This document shows, one piece after another, positions 3,607 through 28,613 of a DNA stretch of 32,979 bases. The DNA is from an uncultured Bacilli bacterium (GTDB lineage: Bacteria; Bacillota_I; Bacilli_A; RF39; UBA660). Location: positions 1 to 32,979 of the forward strand of contig CALVJZ010000004.1 in NCBI GenBank assembly GCA_944332465.1, read 5' to 3'. Made by a program: the position numbers and the translations under genes. The first letter of the stretch is position 1; every line of letters starts with the position of its first letter. The notes beneath the pieces were generated by a model. It searched no databases. It saw only the letters and a list, made by a program, of their open reading frames with translations, and was not told the origin of the DNA.

Positions 3607-4053
3607 CTAATACCTTTCTCCATCATAATTTATAAATAAATCCATACAAGATTCATCTTCTAATTTTATTTCTTCTAGCAATTCATTATTTCCTTTTAAA
3701 TACTCATAGATGTCATCATCTTTAAAACCTATTTTTTTAGCATCTTTTTTTGTTGCAACATAATAGACTTTTTTTATGTTAGCCCAGATAATTGCGGATA
3801 AGCACATAGGACATGGTTCACAAGTAGTATATAAAGAACATCCTGTTAAATCTTTAGTTTTAAGAGTCTTACATGCTTTTCTAATAGCATTTATTTCAGC
3901 ATGAGCCGTTGGATCGTTATCACTTAGGACAGTGTTATGAGCAGTTGCGATTATATTACCATTTAAATCAACAATTACTGCACCAAATGGTCCTCCACAT
4001 TTATTTTTTACACCTATCTTTGCTTCTTTTGTTGCTTCTTCTATGTAATTCAT
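3607..4053 (-). CDS. guaD: Guanine deaminase-like cytidine deaminase-fold enzyme
   Basis: A 148-residue zinc deaminase that probably converts guanine to xanthine and ammonia in purine salvage, in the cytosol. The zinc and catalytic motifs are complete: H51-A-E53 within PTAHAE, and C81 and C84 within PCPMC. The stretches GGPFGAVIV and DPTAHAEINAIRKAC, and the region after the PCPMC motif with GFKDDDIYEYL, resemble the small domain-swapped GuaD of Bacillus rather than TadA, which is the main alternative. ATG 4053 overlaps the upstream stop by four bases (ATGA), so translation is coupled. The surrounding membrane proteins give no metabolic context. Confidence 0.75.
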   Translation of the reverse strand: MNYIEEATKEAKIGVKNKCGGPFGAVIVDLNGNIIATAHNTVLSDNDPTAHAEINAIRKACKTLKTKDLTGCSLYTTCEPCPMCLSAIIWANIKKVYYVATKKDAKKIGFKDDDIYEYLKGNNELLEEIKLEDESCMDLFINYDGERY

Positions 4054-5381
4054 GCAGTTTCATCTCCTAACAACGTTGTTTGTAATGTTTGTATTTTTTC
4101 TTCTATAAGGTTATCTATAGATTTTTCTAGTGTACTTGCTAAAGTAGAAGTAGAAATATCTTCAGTTATTTTAGTGTCGTTTGATACTTTTTGTTCTAAA
4201 GTAATTATACCATCTAACATTGTTGTATCTTTATTTGTAATTTTAATAGAAATAGATGTATTACTGTCGTATGATTTATTTTTGTGTAAATTGGTAATTT
4301 GATTATTATATCCTAATGAATAGTTGGTATCTTCTTCGCTAAAGTGAAGAATGATATCGGTATTTGTATCTGTCTTAGTAATAGAAATATCACCTAATTC
4401 TTCATTGTTTTGATTGGTAATGGTAATAGTAGTCATTTTTTTATTTCGATTAATTGTAAAAGTTATACTTTCATCTTCATTTTTTATTATTACTTGTTCT
4501 TTTCCTTGTTCAATTGAATATATAAAAGAATTATCTTCGTTTATTATTTCTATTTTATTAAATTGTGGGAATATTTTATCTAAATAAATATTTACTTTAA
4601 TAGGTTTTATGTTTTTTACATCTTTTTTAGTTATTTTTGTTTTTGAAAAATTTGGATTATAGGCAGTTAATATAGTGTTTGCCCTATCGTCATTTTTTAA
4701 ATCTTTTAAGATATTATTTTCTAATTTTAAAAGATCATTTTCTTTTAATGTTAAAGTTACTATTTTTTGAGTGTTGTTGTAGGAAGTAGTTATTGTATCT
4801 TCAGTAAGATTATTGGTTATTATTTCTGGTAATATTTCTAAGATGTAATCAATATTTTCATAGGTAGTATTTGTTGTTAGGGACTCAAAATAATTATTAT
4901 TACCATTATTAATATAAGTATTAGTAATTCCTTCGATAAAGTAATACTCTGTTGCATTATCAATTAGTTGTTTAATATTTAGTATAGATTTGTCATTTGT
5001 TTTTGTATTAACATTTATAAATCTTTTTTCATTTTTCTTATCATGTATATATGTATATTCTGTAGTAGTATTAGATAAGTTATTTAAACTCTTCGCAATA
5101 GATGCATATTCTTGATTCATAGAAGATAATCCTGCGTAGTAATCGCTTTTTAAATCCATTCTTAGGGTTCCTTCTATTTTAAAGTTTTCTGTTAAACCAG
5201 TTTCTTTTTTATTTTCATATATCCCCATTAAGTTAGTTGTAACTGTAGTAAGTGCTTTATTAATAATGTATTTTGGAGATGTTAAATAAGTTAATAAGGC
5301 GCCCGATACAAGACAAATTATCGCAATAAAAAACAAAAATTTTACTATGCCTCTTCCTTTTTTTTCGTTATTTGTTCCCAC
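4050..5381 (-). CDS. Membrane-anchored protein of unknown function
   Basis: About 443 residues. A short Lys/Arg-rich start is followed by one hydrophobic helix (about residues 13-35) and a long Asn/Thr/Ile-rich, probably extracytoplasmic domain with many predicted beta strands. I recognise no family. I place the start at GTG 5381, which has AGGAG eight bases upstream. An in-frame GTG at 5390 abuts the same AGGAG and has no usable spacing. It is the first gene of the operon, behind the 5404-5432 promoter, and overlaps guaD by ATGA. A lipobox is absent, so it is anchored by the helix rather than by lipid. Confidence 0.75.
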   Translation of the reverse strand: MGTNNEKKGRGIVKFLFFIAIICLVSGALLTYLTSPKYIINKALTTVTTNLMGIYENKKETGLTENFKIEGTLRMDLKSDYYAGLSSMNQEYASIAKSLNNLSNTTTEYTYIHDKKNEKRFINVNTKTNDKSILNIKQLIDNATEYYFIEGITNTYINNGNNNYFESLTTNTTYENIDYILEILPEIITNNLTEDTITTSYNNTQKIVTLTLKENDLLKLENNILKDLKNDDRANTILTAYNPNFSKTKITKKDVKNIKPIKVNIYLDKIFPQFNKIEIINEDNSFIYSIEQGKEQVIIKNEDESITFTINRNKKMTTITITNQNNEELGDISITKTDTNTDIILHFSEEDTNYSLGYNNQITNLHKNKSYDSNTSISIKITNKDTTMLDGIITLEQKVSNDTKITEDISTSTLASTLEKSIDNLIEEKIQTLQTTLLGDETA

Positions 5382-5403
5382 GACACTCACTCCTATTATT
5401 TAC

Positions 5404-5432: not shown

Positions 5433-5462
5433 TAAAAAAAACAACTATTAACAGTTGTTTTA
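5432..5462 (-). terminator. Rho-independent terminator closing the division/pilin-like operon
   Basis: Stem AACAACT (5459-5453 on minus) with AGTTGTT (5446-5440), a 6-nt loop, then a run of seven T. The stop codon TAA at 5462-5460 touches the stem. Confidence 0.85.
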
Positions 5463-5762
5463 TGGTGTTTTTATTCCCGTAAGAGTTCCTTCTGATAAAC
5501 AATAAGTATATGTTACAGAATTATCTCCTTGGAATTTCCAACATTTGTTTTCTTCACCTATATATGTAGCAGTTACTCCACCTTTTTTTAATTGATTTAT
5601 TACTTCTTCTTTTGTTTTTAAGATTGGGCCAGATTCTATATTATTGCTTTTTACTTGTTTTTGTTTTATTTCAGGATCTTTTTTTAAACATAATGTTGTT
5701 CCTATAACAACAGATAAGACTCCTAAAATTAATATAAAGCTACAGACTATTTTCTTTTTCAT
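5460..5762 (-). CDS. Small secreted or membrane-anchored protein, unknown function
   Basis: 100 residues. Residues ~5-25 are a signal/anchor helix after KKK, followed by a linker and an ~50-residue domain with two Cys (in NKCWKF and TYCLSEG) that could pair outside the cell. The C-terminal pattern, with short strands ending GTLTGIKTP, is beta-rich. No family is recognised. It starts at ATG 5762 with AAGGAG upstream that overlaps the stop of the prepilin gene. It is the last gene before the terminator at 5432-5462. Its position suggests work with the prepilin or its neighbours, but that is inference. Confidence 0.7.
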   Translation of the reverse strand: MKKKIVCSFILILGVLSVVIGTTLCLKKDPEIKQKQVKSNNIESGPILKTKEEVINQLKKGGVTATYIGEENKCWKFQGDNSVTYTYCLSEGTLTGIKTP

Positions 5763-5774
5763 ATTTATTGCTCC

Positions 5775-7775
5775 TTAACCTATTTCATCACACCATTGAT
5801 AAGTAGTAAAATAATCCCTTGGAGAGTTACTGTGAATTTTTCCTCCTTGGACAAGAGATACACCTTCAAAGTATCTTCCGTCTCCCCAGTGATAGCATCC
5901 ATCTTTTAGTCCACCAGATTGATTTTGATCTTCGGAAACGTTGTGATCTATTTCTCCTCCATACATATAAAATTTTACATAATTACGAACTCCGGCATCA
6001 TAGTGGGCCCTGTTATCATGAATTCTTCCACTATGCATTTCTAATGTACCATAATTCCACACGGTGCCATCCCAAGATTGATTACTATAAATATCAACAC
6101 CATACATTTTCATTTTTCCTGCTCCCCAGATAGCTGCTCCTCCTGCTGTTGCCCTATTATTATGTATTGATACATTTTTTAGTGTAATATTTGAAGATTC
6201 ACCTCTAAATAAAGCTCCACCAAAATTATTGGTGTTGTAAGCATTTCTTAACTCACAGTTTTCTAAAGTTGCTGTTCCCTCTAAATATACCATTGCAGTT
6301 TTAACATTTCTATTACCCCCATCAACAATAATATTTTTTATTGTCAAGTTTGAATTTATGTTACTTTGGTAAATCATAGAGTATTGGTATGATGGGTGAC
6401 GATATACTATATATTTATTATTTCCTTCACTCGTTAAGGTAACTGTTTTATTTCCCTTTAAATCTTGAGCTTGATTAGTTTGCGTAATATTAGAAAGCAA
6501 AACCACTTTACCACCTGTTTTAACTGTATCAAAGCCTTTTTGAATACTAGCAAATGGACTTGTTTTAGAACCATATCCATTATCACTACCGTTTGATGAA
6601 ATATAACAAATATTTCCTGGACAAATCGATTCAGGCAAATAGTTTATTTTTTTATTAGCGATATTTCCAGCGTTATCTCTTACAGTAATATAGATAGTTC
6701 GTGTTTTACCATCATATGTACCCTTTAAGTCATAACTTACTGAGCTAGCATACTTTTGCCACTTACCACCTTTTTCATATCCTGTTGTTGATATATATAT
6801 TTCATTAATTCCATGAGCATCTGTGGCATTGGCTTGAACATTTATTTTTAAACTTTTAATGCCAGATTCTCTGGATACTATTTTAGGATTTAATGTTGGT
6901 GCAACATTATCTATGAAATATGGTCCAAATTTCGCACCTATATAGTTTATATTTCCAAAATAATCTTGTATACCATAGTTATTTTTTTCAGTATTTGGAA
7001 CAATATGTAAATAGTATTTACCATCAATATTATTATCATTTGGTACTTTGTTCTTTCCAACATCATAAATAACACTTTTTATATTACTAAGTTTTTTATT
7101 ATGAAAGTTATGTTTATATGGATATTTAGCATCACTTACATTTGATGATGTAGTAAAAGCCCACTTAATAGATTGATTTTTATTAAGACCACTAGCATCA
7201 TTAATAACAAATTTTAAATCTATACCTTTATCTTTATATTTATTTTCTTCTTCTACTAATCTTTCAAAATTTAACCATTTATTATTTGTGTTTTCTGGAA
7301 CTGCAGTAATAGTTGGTGGTAATTCATCATTTTTAGTTTCACATTTTAACACTTTGTTTTTTATATTGTTTTTTTGATATACGATATTTTCTTTATTTTC
7401 TTTTTCAAAACAGGTAACTTCGTCAAAATATGTTAGTCCATCTTTATCTTTCATTACAAGAATTTGAGTTTTCTCACTGTTACAGCTGTAGTTTTTTTCA
7501 CTTACATCCTTGATTAAATTTGCTTCTTCTAACATTTGAAATGTTATTATGGCACATCCTTCTTCGGCATTACCAAATAACTCTTCTTCATTGTTATCAG
7601 TATATAACTTTGATGCGGATAAAATAGAGGAACTATAGGCATCAAATTTTTTATTAACATCTTTTAAAGAACCTATGCGCGGTAGAGCCAAAACTAAAAT
7701 AATACCAATTATAGTTATTGTTATTATCACTTCTATTATTGTAAAACCTAATTGATTTTTATTATTTCTTGACAT
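5775..7775 (-). CDS. Type IV prepilin-like protein with beta-helix C-terminal domain
   Basis: 666 residues. The N-terminus MSRNNKNQLG/FTIIEV is a class III (prepilin peptidase) signal: 10-residue leader, Gly at -1, Phe at +1, Glu at +5, then a hydrophobic helix to about residue 32. Residues ~155-380 look like Ig-like or cell-surface beta modules (motifs IDNVAPTLNP and TVRDNAGNIA). From ~389 (YISSNGSDNGYGSKTSPFASI) to ~650, repeated short turns such as NVSIHNNRA, GRIHDNRA and GGEIDHN indicate a right-handed parallel beta-helix, common in adhesins and polysaccharide-active proteins. I chose ATG 7775 because GAGGTGG precedes it. The in-frame start 13 codons earlier overlaps the previous gene. 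Large size and the beta-helix are unusual for a pseudopilin. No prepilin peptidase or assembly ATPase lies in the window. Confidence 0.8.
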   Translation of the reverse strand: MSRNNKNQLGFTIIEVIITITIIGIILVLALPRIGSLKDVNKKFDAYSSSILSASKLYTDNNEEELFGNAEEGCAIITFQMLEEANLIKDVSEKNYSCNSEKTQILVMKDKDGLTYFDEVTCFEKENKENIVYQKNNIKNKVLKCETKNDELPPTITAVPENTNNKWLNFERLVEEENKYKDKGIDLKFVINDASGLNKNQSIKWAFTTSSNVSDAKYPYKHNFHNKKLSNIKSVIYDVGKNKVPNDNNIDGKYYLHIVPNTEKNNYGIQDYFGNINYIGAKFGPYFIDNVAPTLNPKIVSRESGIKSLKINVQANATDAHGINEIYISTTGYEKGGKWQKYASSVSYDLKGTYDGKTRTIYITVRDNAGNIANKKINYLPESICPGNICYISSNGSDNGYGSKTSPFASIQKGFDTVKTGGKVVLLSNITQTNQAQDLKGNKTVTLTSEGNNKYIVYRHPSYQYSMIYQSNINSNLTIKNIIVDGGNRNVKTAMVYLEGTATLENCELRNAYNTNNFGGALFRGESSNITLKNVSIHNNRATAGGAAIWGAGKMKMYGVDIYSNQSWDGTVWNYGTLEMHSGRIHDNRAHYDAGVRNYVKFYMYGGEIDHNVSEDQNQSGGLKDGCYHWGDGRYFEGVSLVQGGKIHSNSPRDYFTTYQWCDEIG

Positions 7776-7801
7776 TTCATCCACCTCATTTTTCTTTTGG
7801 C

Positions 7802-8332
7802 TTATTCTACACAAGATGTTAAAATACTTACTTCATAAGGAACTGTTTTGTTAATAGATACTCCACTATTAGCAAATTGAACAGTAATAGTTAATTTGAT
7901 TTCTTCACCAGGATTTAATTCTTGGTTTTTTATATCATTATGATTTAAGATAATGGGATAAATGTCATTAGCGGCATTATCATTATTTATATAATCAGGA
8001 GTTTCTGATAAACCATCTATTTTAGCTTTTAAGTTTCCATTATTTTTTATCGTTATAATATAAGTTAGGGTATCATCTGGAGCGGATAAGTTAAAAGTGA
8101 AACTTGCTGTTTTACCGTTATTAGTGATATCAGATACAGCAGTTGGTAGAATCGTTCCACCTTTTATAGCAGTACCTTCTTGAATATTTACAATTTCTAC
8201 TTCATATATTTTATCGTTTTTGATTCTTTCACTTAAACGCATAGATATTAAGGCAAAACCTACACTTAAAACTATTATTGTTATACATAATAGTAAAATA
8301 ATTATATTTTTATTTCTTACTATTTTTTTCAT
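7802..8332 (-). CDS. Membrane-anchored beta-sandwich protein, unknown function
   Basis: 176 residues from ATG 8332. GAGGGG lies eight bases upstream, and the in-frame TTG two codons earlier is less likely. It has an N-terminal hydrophobic helix (about residues 9-31, ending SVGFALISMRL). The remaining ~140 residues alternate beta strands with the blocks SFTFNLSAPDDTLTYIITIKNNGN and LNPGEEIKLTITVQF, a DUF11/CARDB-like Ig pattern seen in surface proteins (family inference). The ATG overlaps the upstream stop as ATGA, and the prepilin start follows 26 bp after its stop. It may be an accessory surface subunit. Confidence 0.7.
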   Translation of the reverse strand: MKKIVRNKNIIILLLCITIIVLSVGFALISMRLSERIKNDKIYEVEIVNIQEGTAIKGGTILPTAVSDITNNGKTASFTFNLSAPDDTLTYIITIKNNGNLKAKIDGLSETPDYINNDNAANDIYPIILNHNDIKNQELNPGEEIKLTITVQFANSGVSINKTVPYEVSILTSCVE

Positions 8333-9189
8333 GAACAAATCCCCTCACTTTTATTCTCTATAGAACCATTATAACAGAATTTATAGGATTCTATATTAAT
8401 TTGTGCATAAACTTTACTATTTTCTATATAATACCAGCTATCAGTTGTTGGAAAAATGGTGTTGGCACTATCACCAGGAATATATTGTATTGGCATTCTA
8501 CTATCATCTTTAGTTTGATTTTTTACATTAGCATTTATCATATAAGTAATTAATTTTTGATATATTTCGTCAGCATATACTTCTGCAGATGACTTTTCAA
8601 TTTTAGATTGTGTAGTTACTTCTTCTTTAGCATATTCACTTATATAATCTCTAGATTGTAGATATAATTGCCATAATAACTCTTCTTCTGTTGTTATATC
8701 AAAAGTCTCTTCTTTAATTTTATCTTTTAGAGTCTTTTTTAATTGTTTTATTTCAATTACTTTATTATTTTCTTGTAATTTTTTATTTATAATATTAAGA
8801 CACTCTTCATAGATAGTATTATCATTATAATTAATTACTTCTATGCTAGAGACATTTAATTTATTGTTGTTAAGTAGTAAATCCATAATATCTTTTATCG
8901 CTTTATTTATTTTTTGTTCTTCAATATTTTTATTAGCTAGAAAGACTGCTTCTTCGTTTTCAATAAAAATATTTTTTAAGATTTTATTTTTATTTATAAT
9001 AAGAAGAAATTTAGGCCCTGTTGGAATATTTATTTCTATAGCTGTTTCATAATTACTGTTTCTCCATAATTTTTCACTACTACCTTTTAATGCTTCTTGT
9101 TCAGGAATAAACTTGGTAATTGCCAAATAAATTACGACTATTAGTATGATAATAACTTCTAAAGCATAAAATATAACTTTTCTTTTCAT
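8329..9189 (-). CDS. Single-pass membrane protein, unknown function
   Basis: 286 residues with one N-terminal helix (about residues 5-27), then a Lys/Asn/Ile-rich, largely helical region. The last ~60 residues contain a segment (DSWYYIENSKVYAQINIESYKFCYNG) that looks like a small beta unit with Cys. No family is recognised. ATG 9189 lies one base after the pbpB stop codon, the tightest junction in the operon, so it is translated with the PBP. In most dcw clusters the next genes are mraY and murD. Here this unknown takes that place. A pilin-like (major/minor subunit) role is possible given the next genes but no prepilin cleavage site is present. Confidence 0.7.
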   Translation of the reverse strand: MKRKVIFYALEVIIILIVVIYLAITKFIPEQEALKGSSEKLWRNSNYETAIEINIPTGPKFLLIINKNKILKNIFIENEEAVFLANKNIEEQKINKAIKDIMDLLLNNNKLNVSSIEVINYNDNTIYEECLNIINKKLQENNKVIEIKQLKKTLKDKIKEETFDITTEEELLWQLYLQSRDYISEYAKEEVTTQSKIEKSSAEVYADEIYQKLITYMINANVKNQTKDDSRMPIQYIPGDSANTIFPTTDSWYYIENSKVYAQINIESYKFCYNGSIENKSEGICS

Positions 9190-18298: not shown

Positions 18299-20308
18299 TT
18301 AACTTTGTAAATTACCATCTGTTGTTATGGTTTGATTTTTAGGATAGATTGTTATAGTTCCAACATCTTTAGTCTTTAAATTAGGAATATTATATTTTTC
18401 AAGTTTTAATAATACTTCTTTACTTGGATGATTATAACGATTGTTTTTACCTACAGATATAATAGTTAGTTTAGGAGAAAGTTCTTTTAATAATTTAGTA
18501 CTTGTCGAAGTGTTTGAACCATGATGAGCTAGTTTTATAATATCAGGTTTTAAATTATAGTTTTTTACAATATATTTTTCAGATATTTTAGTAGCATCTC
18601 CTAAAAATAAAATATTTAAATTTTTATGCATTACATAGTAAATAGAACTAGAAGTGTTTTCTTCTTGCCAAGCTTTATTTAATTCAATTATTTTAAAGTT
18701 ACCTAAAGAAATTATTTCATCTTGTTTACTTTTACTTGTTTTTTTCCACTTGCTTATTTCTTTTTCTATTTCTTTTTTAGAGCCTAAATTTATTTTTATT
18801 TTCTCTATTTTAAAATTATTATTTAAATAAAATATATCACCCATATGATCGTAATCTCCATGTGTAAGTAAGGCAAATTTTAGTTTTTTTATACCTAAAC
18901 TTTTTAATAAGGGAATAATTTTATATTTCGCAACACTATCTTCACTATATATATTTCCTCCTGTATCTATTAAGAGAGCTTCACCTTTGGAGTAAAGTAA
19001 GGCACTATCTCCCTGCCCTACATCTATTATTTTTATAAAATCTTGATATGTATATGGTATAAGGTAATGAATAAGAAAGAAGATGATAGTTAGTATTTTT
19101 ATTATTTTATTTTTCTTAGTTATAAATAAATAGATAAGTAATCCTTCTATTAGATAAATAATAATAGTTGTTTTAGGAAAGATAAGAGTTCCAAATTTAA
19201 TTTTAGTTAAGAAAAGAGAAGTGTTTTCTAATATATCAATTAATAATTCGTAAACAACTATAAATGGTTTAAATATAGAAGTTATAATGGTCATAGGAAA
19301 TATTATGATATTTACATATGGTATATAAAATAAGTTATAAAAAATACTTAGAATATTTATTTGATAAAAGAAATAGAGACTAATGGGTATACTTATTAAA
19401 AAAGATAAATAAGAACTAATAAGTAAAGTTTTAAAATATGAAGTGTTAGGAGTTAAAAAATATAATAGTCCAATACTTATTATAAATGAATAATAAAAAG
19501 CAACATCACATAAAAAGTAAGGATTTAATAAAAGAGTAATAATTAAAGTTATTAGTATTAATATTTCTTTAGCAAGATTTAGTTTGGCTATTTTATTTAA
19601 TTTCCAGAGAGTATAAAATAATACGCCTCTTAGAATAGAGGCACTTAAACCTAGTATTAAAGTATAGAAAAATAATATTATGATAATTATTAGGTAAGAT
19701 AATTTTTGATTTACTTTTAGTTTGTTTAATATTTTTTCTAAGAAATTAGCAATCATATAAAACTGCATACCACTTATAGCAAATAAATGACTTATACCAT
19801 TTTGTTCATAGGAAGTTTTTACATCTTCTTTTATATTATCTGTTATACCAAGTAAAAATGCTTGTTCATAGGGATTAGTTAAATAGTTTATTAATAATTC
19901 TTTTAGACTATAAAATATATTTTTATTTGTTTTTATTATTTTTATTTTATCTATTTTTATTAAGTGATAAATCTTTTTTGTTTCTAAGTAAAAGCGATAG
20001 TTAAATAAATTTTTAGTGGTATTTTTTTCTGGTTTTGATATTTTGCCAGTTACTAATACTTTATCTCCTAAAGATAAATCTTTTTTATTATGATAGATTG
20101 TTCCTCTTATTTTTTCTTTTCCTTGAATAATTAAAGTTGTTTTATCTTGTTCTTTGGTAATATCTATTATTGTGCCAATTACTTCTTTGGTAGATTTAGA
20201 ATAATACTCTTTTTTAGGGGTAATAATTCTAATAAGGGATATAATTATTACGATTATGGTTAAGAAAATAAATAATTTTTTAGACTGTAATATAGTCTTT
20301 AATTTCAT
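18299..20308 (-). CDS. comEC: Competence DNA-uptake channel ComEC/Rec2
   Basis: 669 residues, somewhat short for the family (about 750). An N-terminal signal/anchor and OB-like DUF4131 region (to ~100) precedes the multi-helix competence domain with FAISGMQFY, then a C-terminal metallo-beta-lactamase-like domain with GQGDSALL, THGDYDHMGD and HHGSNTS. ComEC forms the channel that moves single-stranded DNA into the cell, and the C-terminal domain probably degrades the other strand. ATG 20308 overlaps the comEA end by 29 bp, so translation is coupled. Shine-Dalgarno TAGGAG lies ~12 bases upstream. Confidence 0.93.
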   Translation of the reverse strand: MKLKTILQSKKLFIFLTIIVIIISLIRIITPKKEYYSKSTKEVIGTIIDITKEQDKTTLIIQGKEKIRGTIYHNKKDLSLGDKVLVTGKISKPEKNTTKNLFNYRFYLETKKIYHLIKIDKIKIIKTNKNIFYSLKELLINYLTNPYEQAFLLGITDNIKEDVKTSYEQNGISHLFAISGMQFYMIANFLEKILNKLKVNQKLSYLIIIIILFFYTLILGLSASILRGVLFYTLWKLNKIAKLNLAKEILILITLIITLLLNPYFLCDVAFYYSFIISIGLLYFLTPNTSYFKTLLISSYLSFLISIPISLYFFYQINILSIFYNLFYIPYVNIIIFPMTIITSIFKPFIVVYELLIDILENTSLFLTKIKFGTLIFPKTTIIIYLIEGLLIYLFITKKNKIIKILTIIFFLIHYLIPYTYQDFIKIIDVGQGDSALLYSKGEALLIDTGGNIYSEDSVAKYKIIPLLKSLGIKKLKFALLTHGDYDHMGDIFYLNNNFKIEKIKINLGSKKEIEKEISKWKKTSKSKQDEIISLGNFKIIELNKAWQEENTSSSIYYVMHKNLNILFLGDATKISEKYIVKNYNLKPDIIKLAHHGSNTSTSTKLLKELSPKLTIISVGKNNRYNHPSKEVLLKLEKYNIPNLKTKDVGTITIYPKNQTITTDGNLQS

Positions 20309-20954
20309 TATAGGTACTGTCTCCTATACCTGAAACATTTTTTATATCTTCAATAGAAGTAAATGGTGTTTTTTCACGATATGAGATGATAGCTAAAGCT
20401 TTTGTTTCTCCTATACCACTTAAAGTCATTAATTCTTCTTTAGTTGCGGTATTAATGTTTATAAGAGTTTCATTGTTTTCTATAGCATTATCACTTATAC
20501 AAGCATCATTTTCTATTTTACTTTCTTCACTATTTTGACATTTTTCTTGTAGATATTCTTCTTCTTGTTTTGTTGTAAGCCAATTATTTACTTCATATTC
20601 ACTATAGATAATAATTACCATTTCATCTTCTATTTTTTTGCTTAAATTAATAACCGAAGTATCTGCTATATCAGTTAGACCTCCTGCTTTGTTGATTACA
20701 TCAATTACACGAGATGTTGAAGGTAATTCATAAATTCCTGGTGATATTACTTCACCTTTGATATCAACCATATAAAGTTTTTCAGTATCTTCTTTTTTAG
20801 TTTCTTTTTTTATTTTTTCGACAGCTACCTTTTCTATTTTTTTCTCTTTCTTTGGCTCATAGAAATAAATTATGCTACTAATTGTTGTGGCAAGAACAAT
20901 AACAAGAGAAATTCCTAATATTATTTGTTTACGATAACGATAATGAAATGTCAT
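20280..20954 (-). CDS. comEA: Competence DNA receptor ComEA
   Basis: 224 residues. One N-terminal helix (about 10-32) is followed by a Lys/Glu linker, a SLBB domain (~62-118, VDIKGEVISPGIYELP) and a helix-hairpin-helix DNA-binding domain (~166-224, with two GIG turns). ComEA binds double-stranded DNA on the outer membrane face and hands it to ComEC. I chose ATG 20954 because AAGGAGG lies directly upstream, ten codons after the more distal in-frame start. The start is close to the preceding terminator and I see no convincing promoter, so its expression may need a competence-specific signal not visible here. Confidence 0.93.
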   Translation of the reverse strand: MTFHYRYRKQIILGISLVIVLATTISSIIYFYEPKKEKKIEKVAVEKIKKETKKEDTEKLYMVDIKGEVISPGIYELPSTSRVIDVINKAGGLTDIADTSVINLSKKIEDEMVIIIYSEYEVNNWLTTKQEEEYLQEKCQNSEESKIENDACISDNAIENNETLININTATKEELMTLSGIGETKALAIISYREKTPFTSIEDIKNVSGIGDSTYNEIKDYITV

Positions 20955-20982
20955 ACTACCTCCTTTCTTCTTTATTATTTGC

Positions 20983-21019
20983 AAAAAAAAGAAAAGTTCC
21001 TAGACTGAAACTTTTCTTT
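20983..21019 (-). terminator. Terminator of the DHH phosphodiesterase gene
   Basis: Stem AAAGAAAAGTT (21019-21009) with AACTTTTCTTT (20998-20988), a 10-nt loop that includes the stop TAG, then T-rich sequence at 20987-20983. Confidence 0.8.
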
Positions 21020-24302: not shown

Positions 24303-24313
24303 CTCTTTTTTTT
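24291..24313 (+). terminator. Terminator of def
   Basis: Stem AGAGCT (24291-24296) with AGCTCT (24301-24306), loop ATTT, then seven T. The def stop TAG spans loop and 3' arm. It meets the end of the convergent peptidase operon. Confidence 0.85.
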
Positions 24314-25757
24314 ATTTATATACTTTTTGTAATACTTCTTCTTTTGTAGGTGGTGAAAGATTTAAATAATTTAATATTTCATCTGTTGACTGATTTTTTA
24401 AATTGTTAGTTACATATATCATACTAGGTAAAATACTTTTATCACTTTTATATCTTTCAAACATAATATCAGCATAGTACTTTCCTTCAATGTATGGGTA
24501 TAACGATAATAAAAGTGTTGGTGTTTCTATACTTTCTACTATAAGGTCGTCTACTCTTTTTAAAACTCTTCTTTTTAGTTCAGATGGAGATAAGGTGTCA
24601 GTCCAATTATTTTGTTCTATGGCTATTTCTTCCTCTTCTGTAATAACTTCTCCTTCTATTCTACTATTTAAATAACTTATAATATCCGCTAGAGATTCTC
24701 CATTCTCATAAACATAATAACGTCTATTTTTATTATACTTATCTATTTCATCTTTTGGATAACCATGTTCTAGTAAGTAATTGCAAAAAACTTGTTCAAA
24801 AAATAACGAAGGAAATTCTTTCAAAGAAGAATATGTCGATTCTTCTTTAGCATGTATAGAAGCAAAATAGTGAATAAATTCATGAACTAAATCGATAGCA
24901 TCTTCTATAGTGTTATTCCAAGGTGTATAAATATACCAATCATTATCTCCATAAACACATTGCCAAGTATCTCTATCTTTATCAATATATTCTTTTATTC
25001 TTTCATCATCGCTATCAGATATCAGTTTATCTTCTTGAAGACACTCATCAAATATTTTAGTCCAAGTATGACTAGGTTCTATTGTTTCTAAAAAACTTCT
25101 TACAAGATTTATAGAATCTTCTTTAGTAAAAGGTAAAGTTATTTCTTCTGTTTCTTTAGGTGGAGTTATTGTTGTTAATTCATATAAGGTGGTTTTACTC
25201 ATTTGCCCTAGAAGATTAGATAGTTCTCCTTCAGAATAAAAAAAGTTTCTAATATTAGAGAGGTTTTTATCTAAGATTAAGTTTAAGAATGGAAAACGAT
25301 ACTTTTCATACATTGAAGTATATATTTTATCGACATCATAATCTTCTGTTGTTAAAAATTTTTTTAATTCTTCATAATCTTTACTATCAAAAAAGTAGGC
25401 ATAAACTAAACCTAGTTCTGCACTAATTACATCTTCTGGATCAAAAGAGTATAAGCCATCTAATTTTTTATTTAATATAATATGTAAAAGATTTAATCTC
25501 TCCATTTCACTTGGAAATAAATCATCTTCTAAAAAAGATAATACATCAGCAGGATGAAGTTTGGTAATATAATCTAGGATAGATACTTTATCTGTTAAAA
25601 ATATAGAAGCTTCTTCATCTACATAACTTATTTTATCGCCCTCTAGAAATGTTTTAAAAAAATCAGGATTCTTTTCTAAAAACTTTTTTAGACGAATCGC
25701 TTTATTTTTAGTTTTTTCATCATATTCAATAGGAAGTACTTTAGTTTTTAGAATCAT
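24312..25757 (-). CDS. M3-like zinc metallopeptidase paralogue A (third gene of a three-gene array)
   Basis: 481 residues, cytosolic (no signal or helix). The zincin motif HEFIH is at 292-296, followed 24 residues later by E321 in LFFEQVF, giving HEXXH-X24-E as in gluzincins such as M3 oligopeptidases. The flanks NNTIEDAIDLVHEF and FFEQVFCNYLLEHGYP resemble the M3 pattern (TLxDVxxLxHExxH ... Exx...yLl), and a Tyr-rich end (YPYIEGKYYADIMFER) parallels the M3 substrate-binding region. The N-terminus MILKTKVLPIEYDEKTK is shared with both sister genes. Shorter than PepF/PepO-type enzymes (~600). Its ATG overlaps the end of paralogue B by 17 bp. Substrate unknown. Confidence 0.72.
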   Translation of the reverse strand: MILKTKVLPIEYDEKTKNKAIRLKKFLEKNPDFFKTFLEGDKISYVDEEASIFLTDKVSILDYITKLHPADVLSFLEDDLFPSEMERLNLLHIILNKKLDGLYSFDPEDVISAELGLVYAYFFDSKDYEELKKFLTTEDYDVDKIYTSMYEKYRFPFLNLILDKNLSNIRNFFYSEGELSNLLGQMSKTTLYELTTITPPKETEEITLPFTKEDSINLVRSFLETIEPSHTWTKIFDECLQEDKLISDSDDERIKEYIDKDRDTWQCVYGDNDWYIYTPWNNTIEDAIDLVHEFIHYFASIHAKEESTYSSLKEFPSLFFEQVFCNYLLEHGYPKDEIDKYNKNRRYYVYENGESLADIISYLNSRIEGEVITEEEEIAIEQNNWTDTLSPSELKRRVLKRVDDLIVESIETPTLLLSLYPYIEGKYYADIMFERYKSDKSILPSMIYVTNNLKNQSTDEILNYLNLSPPTKEEVLQKVYK

Positions 25758-27216
25758 TTGTTATCATCTTTCTATATTCTTGTTCTTTAGGAATAAGTCC
25801 TGCCATTCTAAGGGCATCTTTAGGAAGTCGAGCATTAACATTCTTAGCTAAATCTATCATTTTAGGAATCATGTCTTCTCCTTCTCTTTGTTTTCTTAAG
25901 GCTATATCTGAATGATAATATCCATAGACATAGCAAAACGCTTCTATTATTTTATAATAATTATCAATCAAATCAATGTTTTGTTCATCACATATAGAAT
26001 CAATATATTGTTCTTGCATAAATGGTGTCATTTCTTCTACTTCTTCTTTTTCTTCTTCACTTAAGGAATCAAATTCTATAGCAGGTCTAACAGCAACATT
26101 ATTAATAATACTATATAATAAAAGAACATATTCATTTAATTCCTGAGCGTAAGCTAAAGTTGAAATTTTTCTATCTCTATTAGCTTTTTCTACTTCTTCT
26201 TTAGGATAACCTCTTTTTATTAAGTAGTCACTTAATATTCCTTCAAAAAATATCGTAGCTATTTCACATTGGGGATTATATTTTGGAAAAACTTCACCCT
26301 CTTCTTCTATATAGTGAAAAAATTCGTGTGTTAGAGAAAAAACATCTTCCAAAGTGTTTTTCATTGGTACAAAGACAACTGGCTTTTTTTGATTTGTTTC
26401 GGTTTTCATTGGTGAATCGGGTGTTTCTTGTATTATTTTTATACTTTGGGCCTTTTTGCTTCTAGCGCTGGTAATAAGATCACCATTTAACTCCATATAA
26501 ATTCCTTTATATAATAATTCTAAAGTTGGATCTATATCTATTAAAAACTCTCTAAATAACATTATTGTTTCTTGTCTAGACATAGGATATGTAATTTCTT
26601 CTAACTCATCAAGAGATACTAAGCTATCTAATACATTTTGTGATAGCTCTAATATATCTAAAATACCAGGTTCTATATCCCTTTCAAAAGGTGAAAATAA
26701 ATTATTTTGTAGAAATGGAAGTTGTTCAGTAAGTAGATAGTTTATTAGATGATATCTATATGTTTTTTCTAACCAAATAAAGACATCTTCTTCTATTTCT
26801 TGTTGTTCTTCTTCTGATGCATGGAGATAATTGTATAGTCCTTCATAATCTTCGTTTGTATGAAAATAGTCGCATATTCCGCATAACTTTCTTAATTTAT
26901 TTTCTTTGTTTTTATAGATTCCAATTTCATAGAAGCGACTTGTCCAGTAAAACAATACTTCTTCAGGGTTATCTACATATTTATCTTTTAAAAAACCAGT
27001 TGCATATTTGGGAGAAATACCATCTAAATACTTTAAAATGGATTGTCCTTTTTCTATATAAATAGTGCTATTTTCATCAATTAAACTAATCTTATCACCT
27101 TTTAAAAACACTCTAAAAAAGTCAGGATTTTTTTCTAATACTTTCTTAATCCTTTTAGCTTTTTCTTTAGTTTTTTCATCATATTCGATTGGTAATACAC
27201 AAGTTTCTAAAATCAT
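25741..27216 (-). CDS. M3-like zinc metallopeptidase paralogue B (second gene of the array)
   Basis: 491 residues. HEFFH at 297-301 and E325 (IFFEGIL), 23 residues apart, match paralogue C exactly. The N-terminus MILETCVLPIEYDEKTKEK and the block KNTLEDVFSLTHEF repeat the family pattern. It carries a Cys-rich touch (LCGICDYF, residues 111-118) and a long acidic insertion absent from its sisters. ATG 27216 follows the paralogue C stop by 2 bp, and only a weak GAAGTG precedes it, so it relies on translational coupling. Probably a cytosolic oligopeptidase (inference), with substrate unknown. Confidence 0.72.
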   Translation of the reverse strand: MILETCVLPIEYDEKTKEKAKRIKKVLEKNPDFFRVFLKGDKISLIDENSTIYIEKGQSILKYLDGISPKYATGFLKDKYVDNPEEVLFYWTSRFYEIGIYKNKENKLRKLCGICDYFHTNEDYEGLYNYLHASEEEQQEIEEDVFIWLEKTYRYHLINYLLTEQLPFLQNNLFSPFERDIEPGILDILELSQNVLDSLVSLDELEEITYPMSRQETIMLFREFLIDIDPTLELLYKGIYMELNGDLITSARSKKAQSIKIIQETPDSPMKTETNQKKPVVFVPMKNTLEDVFSLTHEFFHYIEEEGEVFPKYNPQCEIATIFFEGILSDYLIKRGYPKEEVEKANRDRKISTLAYAQELNEYVLLLYSIINNVAVRPAIEFDSLSEEEKEEVEEMTPFMQEQYIDSICDEQNIDLIDNYYKIIEAFCYVYGYYHSDIALRKQREGEDMIPKMIDLAKNVNARLPKDALRMAGLIPKEQEYRKMITNDSKN

Positions 27217-27218
27217 CT

Positions 27219-28613
27219 TTACACTTCTTTCTTTTTCTGATAACTAGATAATAGTCTTTTAGCAGTACTTAAGACTTCGTCATCTGCTGTTTTTTGACCA
27301 CTTCTTATTTTATCTAATACTATATTTACAGTATTTGGATCTTTTTCTGTTTCTTCTAATAGTTTTTTTACTAATGGATAAGCAATGACATAAGGGGTTG
27401 CTGCTGCTATTTGCGCGGGCTCTGTTATAAGAATTTTATTTCTTATATCACAAAATGTTTTAGCAGTGTCTATTCCTTCATCATAGTATGGTGCTTGTTG
27501 CCTTATTTCATCTAACATTAATTCGTCTTCTATTGATAAACTATGTTTACTAGCTTGATTTCTTAGGAAAAGCAATTCATATATACAGTAAGCATTAGAT
27601 GCTGTAGTAGTTTTTCTTTTATTTTCTCTTGCTTCTTTTACTCCAGTATAACCTAGTTCTTCTAAAAATGAAGCAAACAACATTTCAAAATAAATGGGTA
27701 CAACTTCTGAAGTTAAATAATTTTTATTGGTATCTCTATACATTAAAGTATAAAAATGGAAAAATTCATGAACTAAAGCTAAGCCATCTTCTATTGTGTT
27801 TGAAAAATTGCAATGTATATTTTTCTTTCCTGATTCTTTACTTGTTGTAGCCCAGTCAGATGTAGGACTGTTACCTTCTACCCAGACACCTTGTTCTTTC
27901 ATAATCTTTAATACTTCTTGGAGTTCATTAGTTTTATCTATCTTTTTTAGGAATGTTTCAAATAAAAAGGTTGATTCTTCTTTAGTCATGGGTGTTTTTA
28001 AAGATACACTTTCTAAAAAAGGGTTAGCTATTTCTAAAACACTTTTGGAAATTAGTTCTAAATCTAGTGGTATTTCATTACTATTTGGAAAGAAAACTTC
28101 CTTTAAAATGTCTAGGGAATTATTTATTAAAATTTCAGAGATACTAAAACGATACTCTTCGTTTAAATAGTCAATAAAATCTGTACTTAATAATTTTAAT
28201 CTACCACTATAGTAATCATATAAATCTTCGTAGGTTCCGCCGCTATTTAAAATATAATCAGCAGCAGCAAGTCTATGGAAAGTTGACTGATACTTTTCAT
28301 CTACTTCTACTTTTCCATCATAATAATCATTTAACCATACTAAAGCAGAAATACTTCTTTGATATGGTACTTTATCTTTTTTACAAATAAGAACAGCAAG
28401 TGTACTTGGTATTAAATATAAACCTTTAGAAAAGACACTTTCTCCTCTTCCTATGAAAATATTACTTTTAGGATTAATTAAACTTATTTCATCATCTTTT
28501 AAAAAAGCTTGAAAAAACTCTTCGTTACTTTCTAATAATTGTTTTAGGCGATATGCTCTTTTTTTAGTATTTTTATCATATTCGATTGGTACAACGCTTG
28601 TTTGTAATAACAT
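27219..28613 (-). CDS. M3-like zinc metallopeptidase paralogue C (first gene of the array)
   Basis: 464 residues, the promoter-proximal member. HEFFH at 282-286 and E310 (IYFEMLF), separated by 23 residues. NTIEDGLALVHEFFHFY and TPYVIAYPLVKK near the C-terminus parallel M3 motifs. It shares MLLQTSVVPIEYDKNTKKRAYRLKQLLESN with the other two N-termini, so the three arose by tandem duplication followed by strong divergence. The AGAGGAG site and the consensus-like promoter at 28638-28666 lie directly upstream. Confidence 0.73.
   Translation of the reverse strand: MLLQTSVVPIEYDKNTKKRAYRLKQLLESNEEFFQAFLKDDEISLINPKSNIFIGRGESVFSKGLYLIPSTLAVLICKKDKVPYQRSISALVWLNDYYDGKVEVDEKYQSTFHRLAAADYILNSGGTYEDLYDYYSGRLKLLSTDFIDYLNEEYRFSISEILINNSLDILKEVFFPNSNEIPLDLELISKSVLEIANPFLESVSLKTPMTKEESTFLFETFLKKIDKTNELQEVLKIMKEQGVWVEGNSPTSDWATTSKESGKKNIHCNFSNTIEDGLALVHEFFHFYTLMYRDTNKNYLTSEVVPIYFEMLFASFLEELGYTGVKEARENKRKTTTASNAYCIYELLFLRNQASKHSLSIEDELMLDEIRQQAPYYDEGIDTAKTFCDIRNKILITEPAQIAAATPYVIAYPLVKKLLEETEKDPNTVNIVLDKIRSGQKTADDEVLSTAKRLLSSYQKKKEV

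Follow-up and report, generated by a model that had tools for sequence, protein, structure and literature searches.

Type IV pilins of modular design have been described as a class, with 264 architectures, and PilB of Streptococcus sanguinis is known to be present in pili and to act in adhesion (PMC8179133). A second point of comparison is ComZ of Thermus thermophilus, a DNA-binding type IV pilin with a large β-solenoid, which has been argued to be located at the filament tip (PMC6561018). Variable C-termini on constant proteins are described as well: VARTIG is a large Ig-domain protein with a hypervariable C-terminus and variable membrane proteins after it (PMC8416519), and in rhs elements C-terminal displacement leaves a constant core with an exchangeable tip (PMC2935791). 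Here we describe a modular prepilin encoded in a 32,979-nucleotide stretch of DNA (contig CALVJZ010000004.1, hereafter the window) of an uncultured Bacilli bacterium, together with the family of long pilins to which it belongs. All window features given below lie on the minus strand.

The pilin gene (5775..7775) starts with an ATG at position 7775 and ends with a stop codon at 5775–5777; a ribosome-binding-like GAGGTGG is found 5' of the ATG, and the stop codon of the preceding gene is close by. A sequence-only reading of this region had described a protein of 666 residues with a prepilin-peptidase site at G10/F11 and a Glu at +5, and both the size, which follows from the open reading frame, and the site are real; the assignment to the minus strand is an addition to that reading. 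PF07963 (27.5 bits, cut-off 21.2) and TIGR02532 (21.6 bits, cut-off 16.3) both match above their cut-offs, identifying a class III signal peptide (IPR012902/N_methyl); in the whole-genome search, the PF07963 match of the same protein scored 32.7 bits. The leader MSRNNKNQLG (7746..7775) is predicted to be cut after G10, leaving a mature N-terminus FTIIE with Glu at +5, and a hydrophobic helix follows.

The pilin module (7326..7745) is homologous to 16 other stalks. In the AlphaFold2 (AF2) model it is predicted to form a long N-terminal helix (residues 13–61) and a small β-domain (to approximately residue 150, strands 104–136), with pLDDT mostly 60–80. The full-length model, made with 7 sequences in the alignment, continues from these into more β-rich modules; its confidence is low (mean pLDDT 55.0) and the tip is unresolved in it. 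Its best-modelled part is the second of two Ig-like modules (residues ~151–384; 6624..7325), where blocks of residues 281–380 mostly reach pLDDT 78–89. Together these modules form a conserved stalk region with 38–51% identity in the alignment. Scanned alone, they matched Big_9 (18.3 bits) and Big_13 (17.5 bits) below the cut-offs, but the modelled stalk resembles the tandem Ig repeats of the adhesin SiiE in a Foldseek search (E 1.9e-6, prob 1.00), in agreement with the Ig-like modules proposed earlier.

The tip (residues 386–666; 5778..6620) is a predicted right-handed β-helix. When it was scanned alone, PF13229 (Beta_helix) matched at 37.1 bits (cut-off 25.9, E 3e-9), a match absent from the domain list of the full-length protein, and rungs of 24–27 residues can be read straight from the sequence. 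The protein thus carries, C-terminal to its pilin module, a functional module that is not specific to type IV pili. As AF2 modelled the tip weakly from its single sequence (pLDDT 53.6, pTM 0.64), it is the profile and the rungs, and not a proof from the model, that argue for the parallel β-helix of the sequence-only reading. The best Foldseek matches of this weak model were mostly β-helix or β-solenoid proteins, none of them significant, and included pectate lyases, pectin methylesterases, tailspikes, ComZ (6qvi), SufD and pentapeptide repeat proteins; an enzymatic role for the tip is possible. Relatives of the tip were absent from the PDB by phmmer, and a PDB profile search gave short matches only, none to a recognized β-helix protein. 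A search for viral relatives of the β-helix found none. Homologues (E ≤ 0.001) occur in three other genomes among the 291 searched, all in proteins without the pilin stalk, and there were zero matches to the tips of the other 52 long pilins. Silent tip cassettes were considered and rejected, as the window tip is without a second copy in its own genome.

The source genome is a metagenome-assembled genome (MAG) of 1.23 Mb in 124 contigs, 80% complete. It encodes one A24 prepilin peptidase (46.3 bits) on contig C67, adjoining a GspF/PilC-like platform protein with two T2SSF domains (113.9 and 82.6 bits), and a GspE/PilB-type assembly ATPase (T2SSE, 398.7 bits) on contig C37, adjoining two pilin-like genes. 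Besides the window pilin, seven N_methyl matches are present. A search for pilD/comC and an assembly ATPase had been proposed as a check, and with peptidase, platform protein and ATPase all found, the main objection foreseen by the sequence-only reading, the lack of a prepilin peptidase, falls away. PilM was not found, though in a genome just 80% complete, and the type of pilus is therefore uncertain. A second ATPase lies on contig C10 (L116) in a set that by eye looks Tad-type, with CpaB-, CpaF- and TadB-like open reading frames, so that two type 4 filament systems may exist in the genome.

The gene stands downstream of mraZ-like, rsmH-like, ftsL/divIC-like and PBP2x-like genes, and it had been linked to division. 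The pilin is absent from this site in the ten congeners that cover it (L103–L109, L111–L113), in which the gene order is PBP, ~290 aa, 178 aa and ~445 aa. In the nearest congener (G015; PBP 93% identical), the 178-aa gene runs straight into the 446-aa gene, the promoter-like sequence and start of the latter included. In nine of the ten congener loci the junction was aligned by blastn, one of these nine (L107) on the downstream side only. Gene order and alignments delimit a two-gene insert of about 2,361 bp (5438..7798), which holds the pilin and one 100-aa protein with a single N-terminal membrane pass (5460..5762), a candidate partner of the pilin, since this arrangement recurs after long pilins. 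Both flanks lie outside the insert: the 178-aa membrane-anchored protein upstream (7802..8338) is conserved here in all congeners covered, and the 446-aa protein on the other side (4050..5390) occupies a conserved site with its own promoter-like sequence. Positions 7802–9189 encode two membrane-anchored proteins (178 and 286 aa) of no clear family, which follow the PBP in all congeners covering the site. Elsewhere in the window, three tandem paralogues of 464–491 aa (24312–28613) carry HExxH-like motifs (HEFIH, HEFFH, HEFFH) and gave no Pfam match at E ≤ 0.01.

The pilin therefore has no conserved place in the dcw-type cluster, and the comparison indicates that the pilin and the 100-aa protein are a lineage-specific insert at this site. 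Sister long-pilin genes adjoin, by eye, operons as varied as uppP/PGM, ftsH, a recG-like helicase, pyruvate phosphate dikinase and others. The proposed link to division is thus unsupported, and we reject it, as none of the ten congeners, the nearest among them, has the insert here; the association is positional and confined to the window lineage.

The window protein was matched in 15 of 15 congeners, in two of them (G004, E 7.2e-5; G013, E 2.9e-4) weakly and over the pilin part only. A stalk profile of 289 positions (E ≤ 1e-15) matched in 98 of the 291 genomes of the family, in some over the pilin third only. Some of these matches are short open reading frames of the usual pilin size; frames with a full stalk match typically have about 520–1190 aa, and long pilins overall about 500–1400 aa. 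A scan of contigs with the whole window protein found nothing; with the stalk alignment it returned four loci, the nearest named records being uncultured Bacilli.

In a set of 53 complete pilins, each 350 aa or longer, we compared the first 150 residues (stalk) and the last 150 (tip) at E ≤ 1e-5. Stalks matched in 1314 of 1378 pairs, a count that is partly selected, since resemblance to the stalk was the criterion for collecting the genes and the leader helix common to all pilins falls within the 150 residues compared. Tips matched in 25 of the 1378 pairs, and this variability, like the identical blocks described below, is unaffected by the selection. Among 40 within-genome pairs, tip identity was mostly 0.13–0.25 (shuffled sequences, 0.19 ± 0.03) and stalk identity mostly 0.5–1.0; the exceptions among the tips were G001 (0.49), G008 (0.42), G281 (0.33) and G006 (0.31). 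These comparisons point to a long-pilin family with a constant pilin/Ig stalk and unrelated tips. Two paralogues on contig C35 of the source genome have the same stalk and tips of thrombospondin type 1 (TSP1) type; in one of them (L009:6095–7840) PF00090 matched at 30.0 bits (cut-off 21.6). The thrombospondin type 1 repeat is a domain more familiar from animals. A further genome of ~1.3 Mb (G245, L120–L125) has eight stalk-profile matches, and the seven intact ones that were extracted carry different tips.

At the nucleotide level, the two C35 paralogues are 100% identical over residues ~160–360 and about 77–91% identical on the flanks, before they diverge. The longest identical run of their stalk DNA spans 611 nt, whereas 2000 permutations never gave more than 152. 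Comparable identical blocks are found in G007 (residues 81–400), G003 (residues 120–560) and G008 (residues 1–160), with the caveat that most genomes are MAGs, in which short-read assembly may misassemble near-identical repeats, and that several paralogue genes are cut off at contig ends; the G008 assembly consists of only seven contigs. Related tips also occur on unrelated stalks, as in p02/p23 (tips 43% identical over 58 aa, stalks unmatched) and p03/p19 (tips 48% over 61 aa, stalks 29%). The identical stalk DNA of the paralogues thus appears recombination-like, as if produced by gene conversion. In G008, a headless, frame-broken third long-pilin fragment lies between two intact ones (L052:6762–7600) and is possibly a decayed copy; by itself the headless piece (L052:6762–7175) is too little to claim a tip cassette. 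A shufflon or inversion mechanism was rejected, with neither long perfect inverted repeats nor a recombinase nearby: at the pairs L009 and L052, no Rci-type recombinase was recognized by eye, and the only inverted matches were imperfect, chance-like and 70–94% AT-rich.

The window protein is, in our view, probably a modular minor type IV pilin with an Ig stalk and a β-helix tip, displayed on a filament and binding a surface. The prepilin peptidase would remove the 10-residue leader and the GspE/GspF-type machine would insert the pilin into a filament, whose tip is the most likely place for so bulky a subunit. The Ig modules would hold the β-helix out from the cell, where it may bind a surface glycan or protein as candidate ligands. 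The 100-aa partner would remain in the membrane and may aid folding, anchoring or assembly of the tip. "Large minor pilin or tip adhesin", as the sequence-only reading had it, is accordingly the best reading; its "new kind" goes too far, as modular pilins (PMC8179133) and ComZ (PMC6561018) precede it.

The pairing with a membrane protein counts in favor of this reading and also bears on a first alternative. We considered the 41 long pilins followed by a non-pilin open reading frame, with the 226 other genes of the same loci as background, taking the longest open reading frame that starts between −80 and +350 nt and applying our own hydropathy rule. By this rule the following gene encodes a single-pass N-terminal membrane protein for 30 of the 41 long pilins and for 69 of the 226 other genes (31%; p 3.6e-7). 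Partners matched in 3 of 15 tip-matched pairs versus 6 of 420 others (p 0.0025, the pairs not being independent), suggesting that tip and partner covary weakly. Such covariation, together with a constant stalk, a hypervariable C-terminus, a variable downstream membrane protein and a layout like that of VARTIG (PMC8416519) and rhs (PMC2935791), would be expected of a pilus-borne polymorphic or contact-dependent system, in which other cells are the target of the tip, with the membrane protein as its cognate immunity or specificity factor. We regard this as unlikely, since toxin domains were not seen in the tips examined, the β-helix and TSP1 tips resemble binding domains, and the partners are unrelated in 12 of the 15 tip-matched pairs.

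The window also encodes ComEC and ComEA homologues (18299–20984; PF03772 116.7 bits; SLBB and HHH domains), so that DNA uptake genes and the pilin gene share one window. The β-helix could then be the DNA receptor of a competence pilus, as in ComZ, a DNA-binding pilin whose β-solenoid is argued to be tip-located (PMC6561018) and whose structure is among the weak Foldseek matches of the tip. Against this, the ComZ solenoid is inserted in the pilin sheet whereas the window tip comes after two Ig modules, the window gene is a lineage-specific insert, and sister genes carry TSP1 or other tips at the equivalent position, which a common DNA role does not predict; we consider a DNA receptor improbable. 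Equally improbable is a surface protein anchored in the membrane by its prepilin helix alone and never polymerized, for although the protein is far larger than typical pilins and filament display is deduced here from genes, the full assembly machinery is present in the genome and the similarly designed PilB belongs to pili (PMC8179133).

Beyond the single filament-displayed pilin that we favor, we tentatively raise the rather doubtful possibility that one pilin/Ig stalk carries a recombining repertoire of tips, each with its own membrane partner. If true, this would be a pilus-borne recognition repertoire, a counterpart in organization of VARTIG or polymorphic toxin systems, through which the cell could change its binding targets. 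To our knowledge, modular pilins have hitherto been known as single, fixed fusions; here, one stalk recurs with unrelated tips, both inside single genomes and across genomes. As the base and stalk are common to many relatives and the far end differs in almost every copy, the sequences suggest that in these uncultured Bacilli pili serve as interchangeable holders of diverse surface-recognition domains. Stalk sharing resembling gene conversion would let these small-genome bacteria change pilus specificity quickly. The origin of the tip repertoires, the ligands of the tips and the need of the membrane protein for tip presentation are hereby opened to testing.

Compared with known systems, the window pilin shares with S. 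sanguinis PilB (vWA) and PilC (lectin) a class III leader, a pilin module, a bulky C-terminal module and a monoderm host, but has two Ig-like modules before its β-helix tip; moreover, it is one of many paralogues with one stalk and unrelated tips, after which a membrane protein is usually encoded. Like ComZ, it joins a pilin to a β-solenoid-type domain. The ComZ solenoid, however, sits in the pilin sheet itself, between its last two strands, and lacks an Ig stalk, whereas the window tip starts at ~386, past the pilin and Ig modules; PilFind did not recognize ComZ as a pilin. The PilV shufflon of the IncI plasmids R64 and TP114 likewise combines a constant N-terminus with a variable C-terminal tip on a minor pilin, but each long-pilin variant has a gene of its own, and these genes lie at several chromosomal sites. 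With rhs the family has a constant core and an exchangeable C-terminal tip in common, although the protein family and size are different and no toxin domains were found. As in VARTIG, long pilins have Ig modules, a hypervariable C-terminus (25/1378 tip pairs) and usually a following membrane protein; they are bacterial with an N-terminal prepilin leader, whereas VARTIG is archaeal (Thermococcales) with a C-terminal sorting signal. A pilin/Ig stalk common to a repertoire of tips was not described in the open literature that we searched, which leaves novelty unproven. The single protein joins a known class, and what appears new is the family, in which a recombining stalk carries unrelated tips and a small membrane protein usually follows.
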